Source: a virus. From it: a stretch of DNA of 39,925 nt. A program made the translations under genes and the position numbers. Shown here piece after piece: positions 1 to 39,925 of the stretch (its first letter is position 1; every line of letters starts with the position of its first letter). Where the stretch lies: positions 1 to 39,925 of IMG/VR virus record IMGVR_UViG_3300029448_000110, one strand, 5' to 3'. Below the pieces are notes generated by a model. It was not told where the DNA came from, did not search any database, and worked only from the letters and a program-made list of their open reading frames with translations.

Positions 1-214
1 CAGTGTTGTAAGCAAGGATGTTTTGTCCTGCTATCTGACCAGTTCTAAAGTTACCAGCCTGTGGTAGCTCACTTTTGTGAAAGCAGGGAACCCAGACCTT
101 AGCGAATATCTTTTCTATCTCTTGCTCATACAGGTCTTGGTCTGAGTAGATGAGGGAGCTAACATATTCTACGTTAGGTTTTGTACGCCATTGCTTATGG
201 TTTCTTGGAGCCAT
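1..214 (-). CDS. Rieske non-heme iron oxygenase, alpha-subunit type, N-terminal fragment (cut by window edge)
   Basis: The gene starts with ATG at 214 and is still open at base 1, so 71 residues are visible. They run MAPRNHKQW, then SLIYSDQDLYEQEIEKIF, AKVWVPCFHKSELP and GNFRTGQIAGQNILAYN. This is the pattern that opens ring-hydroxylating oxygenase alpha subunits: a Y-D-x-E-x-E-x-IF helix, a W-x-x-x-x-H-x-SELP segment and a G-D/N-F-x-T strand just before the Rieske domain. The Cys-His cluster ligands and the catalytic iron site would lie outside the window. An AAGGA stands 11 bases before the ATG. The start overlaps the end of the DUF1289 gene by 20 bases. It would be an auxiliary metabolic gene placed between the small and large terminase genes. 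The substrate cannot be told from this part. Confidence 0.75.
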   Translation of the reverse strand, partial: MAPRNHKQWRTKPNVEYVSSLIYSDQDLYEQEIEKIFAKVWVPCFHKSELPQAGNFRTGQIAGQNILAYNT

Positions 215-331: not shown

Positions 332-538
332 TTAGTTAGTCACTGAGTCAAACGGCAGGCTTTCTAGGAGGCTACCTAAAGGAGACTCAGCAGTTATAAC
401 ATCTAGGCTGGCTCCGTTGTCTTTGAGAAACTTGACGGCTACGGATAGCTCTGAGGCTGTAGCTTCGCCAGTACGAACACGAGCGAGTAGCTCTTGGCTT
501 ACTGCATCATGCAGGGAGTCTAAGATTTCTCTGCTCAT
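332..538 (-). CDS. Terminase small subunit (T7 gp18-like DNA maturase A)
   Basis: Sixty-eight residues. The middle part, ELLARVRTGEATASELSVA followed by VKFLKDNG, and the end SPLGSLLESLPF match the compact small terminase subunits of T7-like marine phages, which have L-L-x-R-I/V-x-x-GEAT, an F-L-K-D-N segment and a final L-x-x-LPF. The small subunit recognises concatemeric DNA and hands it to the large subunit for packaging into the procapsid. AGGAGA lies six bases before the ATG, inside the end of the lysozyme gene. In T7 the large subunit follows soon after. Here a DUF1289 gene and an oxygenase gene come in between. Confidence 0.85.
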   Translation of the reverse strand: MSREILDSLHDAVSQELLARVRTGEATASELSVAVKFLKDNGASLDVITAESPLGSLLESLPFDSVTN

Positions 539-948
539 TGGTACTCTCCTGTACGAATTTGTTCAGCGACTTCGATGGCACGTTGGCCTACCTGCTCAGC
601 CCAGCGGCTGTTAAGTAGCTCTGTCGCTCCAGTATCGAAGTCTTTTTCCTTTATCGCTGCCATTGCGTTGACGAACTTTAAGGCTGTCCCTATGCCTACG
701 TTGAAGACGAAGTTCATTAATCCTTCGTATCTCACCGTGTCTAGCTCTTGTGACCACGGCATCATCTTTTCTAGCTGTGTGTCCACTCGCTTCAAGTCGT
801 TCATTAGTAGGTTTTTCGCTTCTTCTTCGCTGATACCTACGTCCTCCAGATTGCGTCCTATTCCGATAGTTAGCTTGTTTGAAGTACATCTATATGGCTT
901 TAGCTCCATAGATTCATGTCTTATTAATTGGTCAATTAGCTGGTTCAT
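535..948 (-). CDS. Endolysin, T4-type lysozyme (GH24-like)
   Basis: I start the protein at the ATG at 948 (MNQLIDQLIRHESMELKPYR), because GGAG stands five bases upstream. A longer form from 969 has no such site. The protein is 137 residues. It has the lysozyme opening HESMELKPYRCTSNKLTIGIG, with the catalytic Glu near residue 12 followed by a Y-x-C/D-x-x-x-x-x-TIGIG segment, and later a LMNFVFNVGIGTAL helix and an R-x-x-E segment typical of GH24 muramidases. It cuts the glycan strands of peptidoglycan at the end of infection. It has no signal peptide, so it should need the holin to reach the wall. The 3' end overlaps the small terminase start by four bases. Confidence 0.85.
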   Translation of the reverse strand: MNQLIDQLIRHESMELKPYRCTSNKLTIGIGRNLEDVGISEEEAKNLLMNDLKRVDTQLEKMMPWSQELDTVRYEGLMNFVFNVGIGTALKFVNAMAAIKEKDFDTGATELLNSRWAEQVGQRAIEVAEQIRTGEYQ

Positions 949-1060
949 TAAATCTCCACCACCCATCAAAATCTTTTACGCAACCACAAATGTCGTTCAA
1001 CAAAGCCATGCCAAACATATAGAGCAACCAAGCTATTAAAATTGCATAGAGGCTCCTCAT
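932..1060 (-). CDS. Small single-span membrane protein overlapping the lysozyme start
   Basis: A 42-residue ORF beginning MRSLYAILIAWLLYMFGMAL, followed by LNDICGCVKDFDGWWRFNEPAN. It has one strong hydrophobic helix at about residues 4-22 and then a short soluble tail with two cysteines. It overlaps the first 17 bases of the lysozyme gene, in the same operon. The ribosome binding site is weak. Position and size would fit a lysis accessory protein such as a spanin or antiholin, but no sequence motif proves this. Confidence 0.4.
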   Translation of the reverse strand: MRSLYAILIAWLLYMFGMALLNDICGCVKDFDGWWRFNEPAN

Positions 1061-21716: not shown

Positions 21717-23414
21717 TCACCCACATTCCTTTTGTCCTGTTGTGGGGTCAATGAAACAGGCTTCAGCCTTGTTGTCGTTGTCACTAACCTCGTTCAAAAT
21801 TCCATATCTTTTTCCTGATGCGCGGAATGTCGTAATCCCTTTGCACCCCATCGTCCATGCATCTGAGTACAGTTTCTTGAACTCATCGTAGGTAACTTGG
21901 TCACCAACATTGCAGGTCTTTGATACGGCTGAGTCCACATATTGTGAGACCAGTGCCAGCACAGCTAAGTGTTCTTGTGCTGTAATCTCATTGGCTGTAC
22001 GTCCTTTGTAGCCCTGTGCGTAGGCGTAATCTTCGACACGCTCTACTGTATGTCCATCAAACTGCTGGATTGTACGGTCATAATAGTTGCTAAAAGGTGG
22101 TTCGATGCCTGACGATACGTTGTCTGCTGTCAGTGAGATTGTTCCTGTTGGAGCAATGCTGGTAAGGTGACTATTCCTAATACCTTTTTCTTTTATCTTA
22201 TCGATAACCCAAGGAGATAAGGTCTGGATAAACTCACCCTGCAGGTAGTGGTACTCATCATAGAGAGGAAAAGAACCTTTCTCTTCCGCAAGGTCAGCCG
22301 ATGCGGAGTAGCAATGGTCACGAAGGACAGTCATAACCTCTTCGGTAAACGCCATGAACTTCTCTGAAGCGTAAGGAAACCCACACATCTCAGCAGCATT
22401 AGCAAGGCCTGTTACACCTAGTCCCATCCTGCGTTTGTTCTCTGCTTCTGTCTTCTGTTCTGGGAGAGGATAGATTGTTCTGTCTACGACATTATCCATA
22501 GCACGAACTACATTATGAATGTCACCAGTGAATAAGCCAAAGTCAAATGCACCATCAAGAACATACTTTGTTAGGTTGAAAGAACCCAGCAGACATGCAC
22601 CGTATGGAGGCAAAGGCTGTTCTCCACATGGGTTTGTGGCTTCTATTTTTTCACAGTACTTTAGGTTGTTTTTGTTGTTGATAGTATCAATAAACAAAAC
22701 TCCAGGCTCAGCCCAATCCCATGTACTATTCATAATCCTATCCCACAAAGCCTTGGGGTCTATCTCTTTGTAGACCTTGCCTTCAAACATAAGGGGGAAG
22801 GGCGTGTCGTTTGCAAGACACTCCATGAATTTATCGGTCACGCCAACGCTGATGTTAAAACCTGTGAGCTTGTCAGAGTTGTGCTTGGCTGCAATGAACT
22901 GTTCGATGTCGGGATGGTCAATGCGTAGCACACCCATCTGCGCTCCACGCCTGTGACCTGATGAAGCTATGGTCTGACATACTGCATCAAAGATACCCAT
23001 GAAGCTTACGGCTCCACTGCTACGACTATCAAGGGTCACAATCCTATCACCTCTTGGGCGTAGTCGGCTGAAGTCATACCCAATACCTCCACCTTTTTTC
23101 ATGGTAAAAGCTGACTCAGTGGCTTTCTCCATTATGGACTCCATTGAATCCTCAATGTGTCCACTAACAAAACAGTTGTAAGCTGTAGTCTGTCGGGCTG
23201 CACCCATTGCATTCTGTACCCTACCTGCAGGGAGGAAACGCATGTGTCTTAGGGCATCCTTGAACGACTCAAAGTGGTCAGGGCTATCCTTCAATGCTGC
23301 AGCTATGCGTACAATTTTATCGTAAAAACTCTCACCTGTTTGGCGATACTTAACTGTATCTATCTCTTGTGATAGAGGTAGGGTCATTCCGTAGTGTCTG
23401 TTGGGTATGCTCAT
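21717..23414 (-). CDS. nrdJ: Ribonucleoside reductase, adenosylcobalamin-dependent (class II) type
   Basis: A protein of 565 residues. It reduces ribonucleotides to deoxyribonucleotides for phage replication. Visible landmarks are RFLPAGRVQNAMGA, a GGGIGYDFSRLRPRGD segment, SSGHRRGAQMGVLRIDHPDI, the active-site loop KIEATNPCGEQPLPPYGACL (Cys and Glu of NPCGEQ) and the phosphate-binding TSIAPTGTISLTADNVSSGI. The last residues, EACFIDPTTGQKECG, give the C-terminal cysteine pair that re-reduces the active site. There is no small-subunit (NrdB) gene, as expected for a cobalamin enzyme. It is the last gene of the replication operon. Use of B12 from the host is inferred from the family. Confidence 0.88.
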   Translation of the reverse strand: MSIPNRHYGMTLPLSQEIDTVKYRQTGESFYDKIVRIAAALKDSPDHFESFKDALRHMRFLPAGRVQNAMGAARQTTAYNCFVSGHIEDSMESIMEKATESAFTMKKGGGIGYDFSRLRPRGDRIVTLDSRSSGAVSFMGIFDAVCQTIASSGHRRGAQMGVLRIDHPDIEQFIAAKHNSDKLTGFNISVGVTDKFMECLANDTPFPLMFEGKVYKEIDPKALWDRIMNSTWDWAEPGVLFIDTINNKNNLKYCEKIEATNPCGEQPLPPYGACLLGSFNLTKYVLDGAFDFGLFTGDIHNVVRAMDNVVDRTIYPLPEQKTEAENKRRMGLGVTGLANAAEMCGFPYASEKFMAFTEEVMTVLRDHCYSASADLAEEKGSFPLYDEYHYLQGEFIQTLSPWVIDKIKEKGIRNSHLTSIAPTGTISLTADNVSSGIEPPFSNYYDRTIQQFDGHTVERVEDYAYAQGYKGRTANEITAQEHLAVLALVSQYVDSAVSKTCNVGDQVTYDEFKKLYSDAWTMGCKGITTFRASGKRYGILNEVSDNDNKAEACFIDPTTGQKECG

Positions 23415-32769: not shown

Positions 32770-32858
32770 TGGTACGAGCGGGGGGACTCGAACCCCCACG
32801 CCATTGAAAAGGCTCAGGATTTTAAGTCCTGTGTGTCTACCGATTCCACCACGCTCGC
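32770..32858 (-). tRNA. tRNA-Leu, anticodon UAA, with encoded CCA
   Basis: On the minus strand the acceptor arm GCGAGCG pairs with CGCTCGT (one G-U pair). The D arm contains TGGTGGAATCGGTAGACAC. The anticodon arm is CAGGA-CTTAAAA-TCCTG with anticodon TAA. There is a long variable arm (class II), the T arm is GGGGG-TTCGAGT-CCCCC, and then come A and CCA. All parts are intact. UUA is a leucine codon that AT-rich phages use often. The gene lies next to the integrase and may either serve translation or be tied to integration at a host tRNA-Leu. Confidence 0.93.
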
Positions 32859-32912: not shown

Positions 32913-33896
32913 TCAATCTACCTGCTCTAGTAAAGACACACCCTTGACCAAATCTTGCGGGGCTAGGTGTGCGTATCTCATAGTAGTCTGGATAGCTGAG
33001 TGTCCCATCCATTCCTTGGCATGAACCAAGGGCATACCACGCTGAATTAAACGTGAGCAGGTGGTATGTCTAAGGGTATGCCAGACTACATCCTCAAGTT
33101 CCAGGTGGTTAACTAATCGTTGCCACTTGGAGCGAGGGAAGGTTCCGAATAGTTTATCTGTGCCTGCGACAGCAGCCCTGCGTTCAAGAGCCTGACGTGC
33201 GCGAGAGGTGAGAGGGACAACACCATTCATAGCGTTCTTACGGTCAGCAAGATACACACCTTCCTTGAGTATATCTTTGGCAGTAAGCTTAGCCATCTCA
33301 CCTGCTCTCATGCCAGTGTCGATGGAGATAATGAAACCGTCACGCAGTTCATCGAACCCCCAGCTATCTAGTGTAGCTAGACACTGCTGTTCTTCCTCGA
33401 CAGATAAGAACCTTATCCTGCTCGTGCCTTCCTTAAGGCGGGAGAGGGTAGGCATGCCATTAGGCAACCTACCTCTCTCCTTAGCAAAGCGTAGTATCTT
33501 AGAAAGGGAGGCAAGCTTTCTATTGATAGTGCCGTTAGCCCTACGCTTTGCTTTCTGATTGTCTATGAACTCATCAACCAATTCGGTGGTGATGTCGGCT
33601 ATGTCTATGTCCTTACCAAAGTAATTTATTACCTCGTTCATCACGAGGATAAGCTTTGGTTCAGACTTAGAACCTACCCAATGCCTCCGATAACATTTAT
33701 CTGCAGCTTCTTGTAGACCCCAAGTGTTGGCAACAGTGATGCCTTCGGATGGGACAGGCTTGCCTAGTAATAAGGCCTGCCTTGCTACTGGTTCTAGGGC
33801 TGTAGCTTCTGCACGAGTGGATACAATACGCCTAAATCTTTCGCCTTTGACAGTTACATAAACTTCAAAGCCATTGTGCCTTCGTTTAATGCTCAT
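32913..33896 (-). CDS. int: Tyrosine recombinase / phage integrase
   Basis: A protein of 327 residues. The N-terminal part is an arm- or SAM-like domain (about 60-165), then the catalytic domain with Arg in SIDTGMRAGEMAKLTAKDI, Lys in YLADRKNAMNG, H-x-x-R in VVWHTLRHTTCSRLIQ, the His of WMGHSAIQTTMRYAHL and the nucleophilic Tyr in MRYAH. It inserts and excises the phage genome by site-specific recombination. GGAG stands before the ATG and overlaps the stop of the regulator gene, so both are on one transcript, the one that begins at the operator-bearing promoter at 34733-34761. The probable attP lies right after its stop codon. Confidence 0.95.
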   Translation of the reverse strand: MSIKRRHNGFEVYVTVKGERFRRIVSTRAEATALEPVARQALLLGKPVPSEGITVANTWGLQEAADKCYRRHWVGSKSEPKLILVMNEVINYFGKDIDIADITTELVDEFIDNQKAKRRANGTINRKLASLSKILRFAKERGRLPNGMPTLSRLKEGTSRIRFLSVEEEQQCLATLDSWGFDELRDGFIISIDTGMRAGEMAKLTAKDILKEGVYLADRKNAMNGVVPLTSRARQALERRAAVAGTDKLFGTFPRSKWQRLVNHLELEDVVWHTLRHTTCSRLIQRGMPLVHAKEWMGHSAIQTTMRYAHLAPQDLVKGVSLLEQVD

Positions 33897-34761: not shown

Positions 34762-35592
34762 GATACTTTTGTCATTGAAGTCGTGGTCAAGCTCCATCTC
34801 TTCATCAAAGAATGACTTGGTAAATGTCTGGTCAGCTACCTCCTCACAAAATATTCCACATTCAAAATCTAAACTCTTTAGGGGTCTGCCTTTAGCATCT
34901 GATGGTAGCTCATCAAGAAAGATACGCTCCCCCTTATGTCTCACTAACTTAGCTCCAATCCTACGGCTTTGTTCTGCTCTATCCTGGAATACATCAGGGT
35001 CTTTCTCGCGTACTAAGTTCCAGTAGGTGGGAGAGGTAGCCTTCACACACCCGATACAGTTAGCGTTGGGATACCCACGTTTATATATGTTAGGTAGTTC
35101 GATACCGTTGTTCTGCAGTATAGAGTAGCAGTCACTCTTTGTGACACCTGCCTCAATGAGAATGGGTATTACGTTAGCCCTCTCTGTTAAGGTGAACCTA
35201 TCGTGTCTCTTCTGTTCCTCCAATGTGAATCCAAGCACATGCCAGTCTGGTCTGTGTCTCTCCTCCCACTGTTGCCTAGCCCTTTTCTTTAACTCTAATG
35301 TGCATGGCGCACCTGCTACACCTGACATAAACTTCCGCTTGTCCCACACCTCTACACATGAGGCATTAGGGTAGTCTTTGTTTGTTGCTATCTCTACTTC
35401 AACACCCAGCCACTGCTGTACGTCTAATAGAAATCTATGGTTGTCTTTGTCCTCTTCAGCTATTGGGTTGTTAATGATACGAACATCATTAGTGGAGCCG
35501 TACTTCTCCAATGTCAGCTTGGCGGCCACAGCACTAGCCGCGCCGCATGAGAACCAAACAGCTATCTTTTTATGAAGCATTGCTTCTGTCAT
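34750..35592 (-). CDS. PAPS reductase-like / PP-loop ATP pyrophosphatase protein
   Basis: A protein of 280 residues. The PP-loop is AVWFSCGAASAVAAKL at about residues 11-26, followed by NDVRIINNPIAEEDKDNHRF. Conserved cysteines occur in ASCVEVWDK, GAPCTLELKKRARQQWE, NCIGCVKATSPTYW and FECGIFC, some of which could bind an Fe-S cluster or metal. PAPS-reductase-like proteins of this type are common in phages. They may act in sulphur transfer, nucleic acid modification or defence rather than in sulphate assimilation. It is coupled to the methyltransferase gene (TAATG overlap, AGGAGG upstream), so a shared role in DNA modification is possible but unproven. Confidence 0.78.
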   Translation of the reverse strand: MTEAMLHKKIAVWFSCGAASAVAAKLTLEKYGSTNDVRIINNPIAEEDKDNHRFLLDVQQWLGVEVEIATNKDYPNASCVEVWDKRKFMSGVAGAPCTLELKKRARQQWEERHRPDWHVLGFTLEEQKRHDRFTLTERANVIPILIEAGVTKSDCYSILQNNGIELPNIYKRGYPNANCIGCVKATSPTYWNLVREKDPDVFQDRAEQSRRIGAKLVRHKGERIFLDELPSDAKGRPLKSLDFECGIFCEEVADQTFTKSFFDEEMELDHDFNDKSILTK

Positions 35593-36473
35593 TACGCTAC
35601 CTCCTGCATGATTGATGTGTCATTCCAATCATGTGCGAATGAATTACACTCGTGGATAGATTTGAATATGTGAGAGACAACATCGACAGTCCAGCCATTG
35701 CCTAGCATACGATAGCGTTGCGTGTTGCTGACGTGGTTGGTGTAGCCTTCGGGTACAGTCTGCAATCTCTCGCACTCTAAGGGTGTAAGCTTCCTGTATT
35801 CTGTATAAGTGTGGTCAGTAAACACTAACTGCCTACGGTGCTTCTCAAAATATGACTTGAGGTTACCCCCTTTAAAATAGTTAGCGTCTATGCAGTGTGA
35901 TTTGTCGCGGTCAACCACGCCATGCTCAAGGATGTCAGTAAGTATAATGTCCTTGGCAGTAGGTACTGTGAATGGAATGTTAGTCCAGTAAAGCCTGTGT
36001 CTATTGTGTGCTGACACTAGGTTACTGTTGATAGCAACAGGTTCAACACCTAGCATCTCAGTGATGATTACCTCACACTCTTTGGACATGCGTACATTCT
36101 CAAGCAGGAAATAGGTAGGCTTGAGTTCCTTGAGCAGTCGCACATACTCAAAGAATAATCCTGACCTCTCGCCTTGCAGCCCTATTCTATTAGCAGATGC
36201 TATTGATAGGTCTTGGCATGGTGAGCCACCGATGAGTAGGTCTATCGAATCTGTGTGGTAAAACTCACTATCAAATGGGACTATTAATTTCCCACCTTTT
36301 GCCTGGATTCCCTGTACATCCCCAAGGTGTATTGTGTCAGGGTAGTTAGCCTTGGCAACTTGGATAGCATACTTATCTATCTCGCTGGCATAGTACTTAT
36401 CTACCTTGATGCCTGCTTTATCTAACGCGATACGTCCACACGACATACCATCGAACAAACTTAGTACGTTCAT
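35592..36473 (-). CDS. DNA cytosine-C5 methyltransferase
   Basis: A protein of 293 residues. The AdoMet-binding start is MNVLSLFDGMSCGRIALDKA. The catalytic loop is LLIGGSPCQDLSIAS (Pro-Cys), the ENV motif is in TYFLLENVRMS, motif VIII is AHNRHRLYWTN, and the end has RKLTPLECERLQTVPEGYTN and RYRMLGNGWTVDVV (motif X). It adds a methyl group to C5 of cytosine in a short target, which is not readable here. No restriction enzyme is encoded nearby, so it is an orphan enzyme, likely for protection against host restriction. AGGAGG stands before the ATG. Confidence 0.93.
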   Translation of the reverse strand: MNVLSLFDGMSCGRIALDKAGIKVDKYYASEIDKYAIQVAKANYPDTIHLGDVQGIQAKGGKLIVPFDSEFYHTDSIDLLIGGSPCQDLSIASANRIGLQGERSGLFFEYVRLLKELKPTYFLLENVRMSKECEVIITEMLGVEPVAINSNLVSAHNRHRLYWTNIPFTVPTAKDIILTDILEHGVVDRDKSHCIDANYFKGGNLKSYFEKHRRQLVFTDHTYTEYRKLTPLECERLQTVPEGYTNHVSNTQRYRMLGNGWTVDVVSHIFKSIHECNSFAHDWNDTSIMQEVA

Positions 36474-37212: not shown

Positions 37213-37240
37213 ATTATACACTAGTGTAGATATTAGTCAA
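37213..37240 (-). promoter_or_regulatory. Sigma70-type promoter with embedded operator, upstream of methyltransferase operon
   Basis: On the minus strand TTGACT, 16 bases, TATAAT. The perfect palindrome TACACTAGTGTA fills the spacer and touches the -10 box, just as in the promoter at 34733-34761. The sequence after it, TGTATAATCTA, is also shared by both promoters. Confidence 0.8.
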
Positions 37241-37946
37241 TAACAAAACCACTAGTGTCATGCTTTGCCGCACCTTTAGCATACAAGGCAACGACACATT
37301 CTGCAGGGTCAAGGAATCGCAAGTCATCCTTGTCACCATCAATAACTTTACGTCCTAAAAATGTCTCTGGTATAGCATCTTGAGTACGCCACACCACTGC
37401 CAGGTTTGCCCCTGTCTTGAGTGCGTCCAGCCTAATCATATCTGCATACCTGTCGGATGCCTCAGAGTAAGACAATGTAATATTGTAATTACTTGGCAAC
37501 TTTTTATGTAGCCTGTTGGATGTTTTAGAATAATCATAAAACTGAATCTCAGGATAATCTTTTTCCATGTCGATATAGTTTTCCCACGGCACGTCAGACG
37601 TACCATTGAGCCTGACACAAGGCTTGATGCCCTTGCGTGTACAGTATGCACTAAAACGGTCAAGGTCAGACTTGAGTTGAACAAGAAACATCTCGCGGTT
37701 ATCACGCCACAGAATGGTCTTTCGTACTCTCGCAGCTTGGACACAATTCATCTGTCCACGGCCTGCAGTATTGAGACAACCAGCCTTGCAACCTGCTAAG
37801 ACAGCCATAGGACACATATTAATCCCTTCGACTTGGTCAGCAGGTGCAAGGTACATAATGGCGGTAAGGTACTCCGAACCGTCACCTTTAACAGTCTTGG
37901 CATTTGTACCAACACCCAACAGCCTCAATCCATTAACCTTAGACAT
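37233..37946 (-). CDS. GP88-domain protein (Cys-rich phage protein of unknown function)
   Basis: A protein of 237 residues. The opening LGVGTNAKTVKGDGSEYLTA, then IMYLAPADQV, the cysteine part MCPMAVLAGCKAGCLNTAGR and ARVRKTILWRDNREMFLVQL match the phage gene-product-88 domain (N-A-K-x-x-K-G, L-A-P, C-P-x-A-x-x-x-C-x-x-x-C-L-x-x-A-G-R-G). The three to four cysteines may bind a metal or Fe-S cluster. Later parts are RLNGTSDVPWENY and VVALYAKGAAKHDT. No activity of the family is established to my knowledge. GGAGG stands before the ATG. Confidence 0.8.
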   Translation of the reverse strand: MSKVNGLRLLGVGTNAKTVKGDGSEYLTAIMYLAPADQVEGINMCPMAVLAGCKAGCLNTAGRGQMNCVQAARVRKTILWRDNREMFLVQLKSDLDRFSAYCTRKGIKPCVRLNGTSDVPWENYIDMEKDYPEIQFYDYSKTSNRLHKKLPSNYNITLSYSEASDRYADMIRLDALKTGANLAVVWRTQDAIPETFLGRKVIDGDKDDLRFLDPAECVVALYAKGAAKHDTSGFVID

Positions 37947-39539: not shown

Positions 39540-39557
39540 CTATAGGAGGACTTTAGA
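39540..39557 (-). promoter_or_regulatory. Phage RNA polymerase promoter P1 (before the early region)
   Basis: On the minus strand TCTAAAGTCCTCCTATAG, identical to P2. It overlaps the stop codon of the terminase gene. The bases at its end, CCTATAGCTATAGG, form a perfect 14-base palindrome. It would send phage RNA polymerase through the small conserved gene and into the early region, as T7 promoters near the genome end do. Confidence 0.82.
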
Positions 39558-39925
39558 ACCACGAACTGGCCTTTGGCCTATGGTTACTGGTGTTTACATG
39601 CGATAAGAACCTATCTAGCTCGTTATCCAATAATTCAGATTTTCTGACCCTGATTTCTGTGTCTGCATCAGCAGCCATCTGCTCTACCCAGTACTGCACA
39701 GCCATAGCTAGGACATCCAACCTATCATCGTGAGCCAAAGCACCACGCTGACGTGTAATCCTAGTCATCTGATAGGTCAGCATGTACCTCATGGCCTTCT
39801 CAGGGGGGAGGTGCTGTACACTATCGTAGTCTTTCTGCAGCACTGTGGGGTCTATAACGAGCCTATGCTGGTTCATTACAGGTTCCAGAGTGTCTATAAT
39901 CCTAGCTTCCTTCTGCTTACTGTGT
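39553..39925 (-). CDS. Terminase large subunit, C-terminal part (T7 gp19-like; cut by window edge)
   Basis: The frame is open to the right edge and shows HSKQKEARIIDTLEPVMNQH, then RLVIDPTVLQKDYDSVQHLP, RITRQRGALAHDDRLDVLAM and AVQYWVEQMA. The block K-E-x-R-I-I-D-T-L-E-P-V-x-N-Q-H-R-L and the HDDRLDVLAMAV segment, with its metal-binding aspartates, belong to the nuclease domain of gp19-type terminases. It cuts the DNA concatemer and drives it into the head. The ATPase domain would lie beyond the window. The stop codon TAA overlaps promoter P1. Confidence 0.93.
   Translation of the reverse strand, partial: HSKQKEARIIDTLEPVMNQHRLVIDPTVLQKDYDSVQHLPPEKAMRYMLTYQMTRITRQRGALAHDDRLDVLAMAVQYWVEQMAADADTEIRVRKSELLDNELDRFLSHVNTSNHRPKASSWF

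Follow-up and report, generated by a model that had tools for sequence, protein, structure and literature searches.

The gene at the left edge of the window, the 39,925-nucleotide stretch of viral DNA analysed here, encodes RL, a Rieske-less homologue of MsmA, the alpha subunit of methanesulfonate monooxygenase. It is read as the catalytic half of a split methanesulfonate-type monooxygenase, the phage copy of which would serve a host enzyme based on a second protein, BIG; the probability of this reading is put at roughly two in three. A wider account is regarded as somewhat better than an even bet: one oxygenase degenerated into a relay and a catalytic alpha subunit that assemble in a mixed ring, phages carry the catalytic one, and their host range is tied to the relay. 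The partnership of BIG and RL is a prediction with strong comparative support from the sequences of both proteins.

The window holds the first 71 residues of RL, MAPRNHKQWRTKPNVEYVSSLIYSDQDLYEQEIEKIFAKVWVPCFHKSELPQAGNFRTGQIAGQNILAYNT, encoded by an ORF that leaves it at the left edge (Table 1). The full-length gene product has about 357 aa in the relatives L002 and L003 (typically 354-363 aa among RL proteins). Both relatives are 100% identical to the window across the 71 residues, and RL beyond residue 71 is described from relatives, in which the mononuclear-iron region, lying beyond the end of the window's part, was also scored. The ORF is not a chance one, since it is encoded in 69 IMG/VR contigs that match the 71-residue query at 58-100% identity; a later profile scan gave at least 492 confirmed stretches. 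The homologue in phage HMO-2011, annotated as methanesulfonate monooxygenase alpha, is 69% identical to the query. Pfam searches with full-length relatives returned the catalytic domain PF00848 alone above the cut-off (E 7e-6 to 3e-8), and no RL member reached the cut-off of the Rieske model. Matches of full-length homologues among PDB sequences are alpha subunits of ring-hydroxylating dioxygenases; PHROGs holds no family for the RL protein. An AlphaFold2 model built on an alignment of phage relatives and bacterial MsmA has a mean pLDDT of 85 and the predicted fold of a Rieske-oxygenase alpha subunit, whereas the model from 15 near-identical phage sequences was of low confidence (pLDDT 45). 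The top PDB matches of the RL model in Foldseek are TPADO, CntA and NagGH (E about 1e-18). Records of Acinetobacter 'phages' with AntA-like matches were set aside as distant (27-38% identity). A sequence-only reading of the window had proposed homology to the alpha subunits of ring-hydroxylating oxygenases, a link to the methanesulfonate monooxygenase-like gene of a SAR116 phage and recurrence in marine phages; the residue block that it quoted is present, and all three proposals are borne out by the matches above.

Table 1. Features of the window, with coordinates and strand.
Feature	Position	Strand	Remarks
RL (Rieske-less MsmA homologue, putative catalytic half), N-terminal 71 codons	2..214	-	start codon at 214; left edge open
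Terminase small subunit TerS (T7 gp18-like, PF11123)	332..538	-	E 4.7e-13; immediately upstream of RL; synteny
Phage lysozyme (PF00959)	535..969	-	E 5.1e-16; upstream neighbour, late lysis/packaging module
Ribonucleotide reductase large chain	21717-23414	-	
tRNA-Leu (TAA), complete	32770-32858	-	adjoins tyrosine integrase
Tyrosine integrase	32913-33896	-	adjoins tRNA-Leu
C5-cytosine methylase	35592-36473	-	
GP88-family protein	37233-37946	-	
Terminase large subunit TerL, C-terminal part (T7 type, PF22530)	39553..39924	-	after RL in circularly permuted genome

The Rieske [2Fe-2S] motif CxH..CxxH was found in none of 127 viral ORFs, and in a joint alignment of 85 RL proteins (70 phage, 15 cellular) not one has the four Rieske ligands. 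The long-spacer form CXH-X26-CXXH, defined as the MsmA Rieske motif (PMC4433239), is likewise absent from RL. All 85 proteins keep the iron ligands H169, H173 and D298 (L005 numbering) as well as the bridging glutamate E166. H169 aligns with the ligand-motif histidine of solved alpha subunits, and the correspondence of E166 to E205 of CntA rests on the aligned E-x-x-H motif. Compared with intact MsmA, RL is missing about 46-60 residues of the Rieske domain, all four cluster ligands included. Where 30 intact MsmA proteins all agree, RL has the same residue at 37-40% of the positions in the Rieske domain and at 97-98% of those in the catalytic domain (91 positions; 97.8% in phage RL). For phage RL the median dN/dS is about 0.03 in the catalytic domain; in the Rieske remnant it is about 0.11 and the estimates scatter widely. 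These values and those for BIG are Nei-Gojobori estimates. The alignments show RL to be a descendant of MsmA in which the cluster-binding part has been deleted and the iron site and the bridging glutamate have been kept. RL thus has the iron site, the bridging glutamate and the PF00848-type fold of a Rieske oxygenase alpha subunit and lacks the Rieske motif, so that of the two metal sites, whose joint loss the sequence-only reading had named as the sign of an inactive fragment, exactly one is gone. Judged by its residues, the phage protein cannot act as a methanesulfonate monooxygenase on its own.

Phage RL varies strikingly in both sequence and length in its Rieske remnant (residues 68-110 of L005 and their equivalents), where identity to L005 is about 30-100%, while the rest of the protein hardly varies; the remnant looks as if it had been swapped between lineages. 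At residues ~174-190 three RL proteins of the HMO-2011 type (L059, L040 and L055) have the MsmA-like stretch HYHNRVTGFNDAYFARKN, where HYFNRVSGFNDEYFARKN is found in other RL proteins, a difference that may stem from recombination with MsmA and could mislead the tree.

The position of the gene between the two terminase genes of a T7-like phage, already suspected from the letters alone, is confirmed by six relatives in which the order TerS - RL - TerL is unbroken (L002, L003, L006, L007, L030 and L031). Both ends of the window align to L002 at 97%, and between them L002 has about 2152 bases that are absent from the window; because L002 bridges both ends, the window represents a circularly permuted genome that is slightly incomplete. 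It is T7-like in its single-subunit RNA polymerase, T7-type primase/helicase, family A DNA polymerase and the T7 domains of its tail fibre and terminase, and it further encodes a tyrosine integrase, a cytosine methylase and a ribonucleotide reductase. The tRNA-Leu beside the integrase may mark an attachment site or be a carried tRNA. It was rejected as a host marker, as it matches tRNA-Leu genes at up to 88% in most genomes of the SAR116 order and thus points to no particular host.

Genomes with RL are varied and comprise T7-like phages, HMO-2011-type phages and at least two other phage architectures. In HMO-2011 the gene lies between small ORFs of the late module, not between TerS and TerL; L008 has another phage gene order (TerL-RL-portal-size), and in L087 and L198 RL occurs in phages with NrdB and baseplate genes. 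A lysozyme homologous to that of the window lies near RL in 86 of 128 viral loci. In 92 of the 128 the fetched flank includes a gene for a lysozyme or terminase like those of the window, and phage RL is therefore likely to be expressed late, as far as gene position tells.

A bacterial scan with one genome per species (84,980 species) delivered 17 loci of Rieske-less length at 70-78% identity (L072-L088), nearly all of SAR116 type; the next matches, at 58% or less, are intact MsmA proteins of about 415 aa. Two of these loci, labelled as Hellea and Rickettsiales MAGs (L074 and L087), look like phage contigs in bins, L087 with ribonucleotide reductase and spanin-like genes, and were counted among the phages. 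Phage and bacterial RL are 74-78% identical overall and share the same invariant catalytic positions. In bacterial loci with enough flank RL is located near the msm operon, which comprises genes for an MsmB-like SnoaL protein, the Rieske ferredoxin MsmC (PF00355, E 1e-10), c11, a LysR regulator and a TauE-type exporter as well as C1-folate genes. On the contigs of L072 and L073 about 10 kb separate RL from the operon. Genome G089 (a single contig of 2,753,527 bases), which is probably that of IMCC1322, the host of HMO-2011, contains two MsmA-like genes and the cluster sulfonate-type ABC transporter - BIG - MsmB-like - MsmC - DmsABC-like - c11 - RL - LysR - TauE, the binding protein of the transporter belonging to the SsuA family. 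In a published SAR116 survey msmA adjoins dmsABC (PMC8547437). The protein c11 (~280 aa; 281 aa in the L077 cluster) is encoded directly upstream of bacterial RL (L077:4953-5798, L239:14555-15385) and has a match in neither Pfam nor NCBIfam; it may help to assemble the split enzyme or belong with the neighbouring dms genes.

BIG is the first gene of the SAR116 msm operon and encodes a protein of 790-860 aa with Rieske, Pyr_redox_2 and Reductase_C domains, that is, a derivative of MsmA fused to an NADH:ferredoxin reductase. Its N-terminal part is MsmA with a perfect Rieske motif (CPHRGMLIERRPxGSF...ITCMFH). The Rieske ligands are present in 12 of 12 BIG proteins, and the bridging glutamate, the first iron histidine and the aspartate are each present in 0 of 12: the segment with the bridging glutamate and the iron histidines has been deleted or scrambled, and nothing is left of the HEDLIGVAGQG block, which contains the aspartate. 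Of the MsmA-invariant positions, 94% of those in the Rieske domain are unchanged in BIG, against 32% of those in the catalytic domain. The dN/dS of BIG is low in the Rieske domain (0.01-0.06) and in the reductase (0.03-0.07) and higher in the catalytic remnant (0.16-0.24). By these measures RL and BIG are each constrained where the other has decayed. In one genome (G002, L235:14189-16575) BIG is present as two ORFs of 330 and 465 aa, the Rieske part apart from the reductase part, which is either a frameshift or a real gene split.

Among 136 genomes from the SAR116 order, 12 have RL, and it is these 12 that have BIG, G010 being counted as BIG-positive on a 136-aa piece at the end of a contig. 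In no genome does either half occur without the other. The 12 genomes are related and do not represent 12 independent events. The sole genome of the 136 with intact MsmA (G015) has neither RL nor BIG. No BIG was detected in viral contigs by a scan that needs exact peptide matches, so that divergent copies could escape it, and that gave just two generic reductase stretches; intact MsmA was also not detected in viral contigs, since no viral match to the pattern CMFHAWQF, which is common to BIG and intact MsmA, gave a confirmed Rieske hit. No reductase or Rieske partner adjoins RL in phage loci, and msmB, msmC and a reductase gene, found beside bacterial RL, are missing there. A partner reductase, sought at the suggestion of the sequence-only reading, was found neither beside phage RL nor in the viral scan. 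The predicted partner is encoded by SAR116 bacteria, probably among them IMCC1322, the host of the one RL phage with a known host, HMO-2011.

A tree with bacterial alpha subunits, which had also been suggested, sets RL apart from MsmA on a branch with 100/100 support. Bacterial RL is placed among phage RL, and an AU test did not reject a one-clade arrangement for either bacterial or phage RL (p 0.33 and 0.48); transfer from bacterium to phage and the reverse are both compatible with the tree and the AU test.

Ordinary Rieske oxygenases pass the electron between subunits: it leaves the Rieske cluster of one alpha subunit for the iron of its neighbour. In CntA 44 A separate the cluster from the iron of the same subunit and 12 A from the iron of the adjacent one, and the bridging glutamate E205, which joins the centres across subunits, is essential for activity (PMC7948474). 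Because transfer in CntA crosses subunits, complementary subunits in one ring would suffice. Electrons in a mixed ring of BIG and RL would pass from NADH to the reductase, from there to the Rieske cluster of BIG and then via the bridging glutamate of RL to the iron of RL. An invariant bridging glutamate in cluster-less RL and its loss from cluster-bearing BIG are what a transfer from BIG to RL predicts. During infection phage RL would, by analogy with psbA, enter the ring in place of the host catalytic subunit or in addition to it and could sustain the oxidation of methanesulfonate, whose products, formaldehyde (C1 units) and sulfite, would supply nucleotide and sulfur metabolism. Methanesulfonate as the substrate, as opposed to another small sulfonate, is a guess, and so is a supply of C1 units or sulfur as the benefit to the phage. 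Some points count against the split-enzyme reading: MsmC could be the electron donor in place of BIG, the usual site of RL in phages, the late module, is odd for a metabolic gene, and RL phages are abundant and varied, so that some of their hosts may be without BIG.

The same late module gives some weight to a different job for RL in phages, such as the conversion of a new substrate or the work of a self-sufficient non-heme iron enzyme with a soluble reductant, perhaps on a late target among phage or host components. The gene recurs across all the phage architectures listed above, mostly near lysis or packaging genes; RL is present in just 12 of 136 SAR116 genomes, and HMO-2011 is the one RL phage with a known host. 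A new substrate is, however, not indicated, because the catalytic domains of phage and bacterial RL are nearly the same, and the invariant bridging glutamate makes sense only beside a Rieske cluster; such a job is considered decidedly unlikely. A catalytic RL could also receive its electrons from MsmC, or another host ferredoxin, docking in the space of the deleted Rieske domain, which would leave BIG a mere reductase. MsmC is encoded in the same operon in all RL clusters inspected, but it is found equally beside intact MsmA (L089, L097 and others) and is therefore not specific to the split. In BIG, moreover, the MsmA Rieske domain survives whole, along with part of the alpha-subunit scaffold; a mere reductase would need neither, and this route is judged unlikely.

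Phage RL might instead act as an inhibitor that joins the host complex, blocks or diverts its electrons and shuts methanesulfonate oxidation off in infection. A single subunit that has no electron supply of its own is well suited to a dominant-negative role, and the shutdown of host pathways by phages is frequent. An inhibitor needs no intact active site, yet phage RL keeps the iron ligands, the bridging glutamate and nearly all invariant catalytic positions under a dN/dS of about 0.03, which makes this function very unlikely. That RL is an ordinary complete Rieske oxygenase, as held by the sequence-only reading and by the annotation of HMO-2011, draws on that annotation and on the homology to PF00848 and the PDB alpha subunits; it is contradicted by the missing ligands in all 127 viral copies, an absence also stated for HMO-2011 and viromes by Henriques and De Marco in 2015 (PMC4433239), and is hardly tenable.

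With the split-enzyme reading preferred, auxiliary metabolic gene is still the best label for a homologue of a host metabolic gene in phages, but the product would be a subunit that completes a host enzyme and not the enzyme itself; the metabolic reading depends on the phage protein working with a host partner. The split-enzyme reading changes the meaning of a gene that is cited as evidence for viruses in the marine sulfur cycle, and it names a concrete partner (BIG), a mechanism and a host requirement. If it is true, the host range of RL phages is tied to the possession of the relay subunit BIG. A Rieske oxygenase that is split by nature, its two metal centres on separate chains, would be of use for the study of electron transfer between subunits, which is usually inferred from point mutants. 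The case further suggests that viral metabolic genes be judged by the completeness of their subunits against the host and not by family name.

RL shares common descent with MsmA (49-58% identity between intact MsmA and RL) and has the identical iron-site motif NYKLWHDTN(S/C)EFYHD(F/Y)MH and HED; MsmA has about 415 aa with a full Rieske domain, whereas RL has about 357 aa and is without ~46-60 residues of that domain. The direct RL homologue of HMO-2011, phage1322_61, shows 73% identity at full length and the same Rieske-less anatomy, although HMO-2011 is a different type of phage from the T7-like phage of the window. Henriques and De Marco noted the absence of the Rieske motif also from one of the two MsmA-like proteins of IMCC1322 and, in the passages that treat it, did not interpret the absence further (PMC4433239). 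In a later text the phage gene is still a putative MsmA possibly oxidising methanesulfonate (PMC4928673). No report of a complementary pair like RL and BIG was found in the open-access literature, and a prior description is possible.

The psbA gene of cyanophages supplies one subunit of a multi-subunit host enzyme. Phage RL would resemble it in supplying one subunit of a host complex; the proteins are unrelated, and photosystem II is not split. The caffeine N7-demethylase NdmCDE of Pseudomonas putida CBB5 shares with RL and BIG a Rieske-less catalytic subunit and a Rieske domain fused to a reductase. No phage is known to carry a copy of this system, and no GST-like protein of the NdmE kind is among the annotated proteins of the L077 cluster. 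NdmC, which has no Rieske cluster, uses the Rieske domain fused to the reductase NdmD (PMC4408171); the corresponding reductase-fused partner of RL would be SAR116 BIG, which is not phage-encoded. The reductase of NdmD is an FMN/plant-type ferredoxin protein, whereas that of BIG is of the FAD Pyr_redox_2 and Reductase_C type. The Rieske part of BIG is the relic of a whole alpha subunit and that of NdmD an extra domain, and RL and BIG, unlike NdmCDE, are derived from MsmA.
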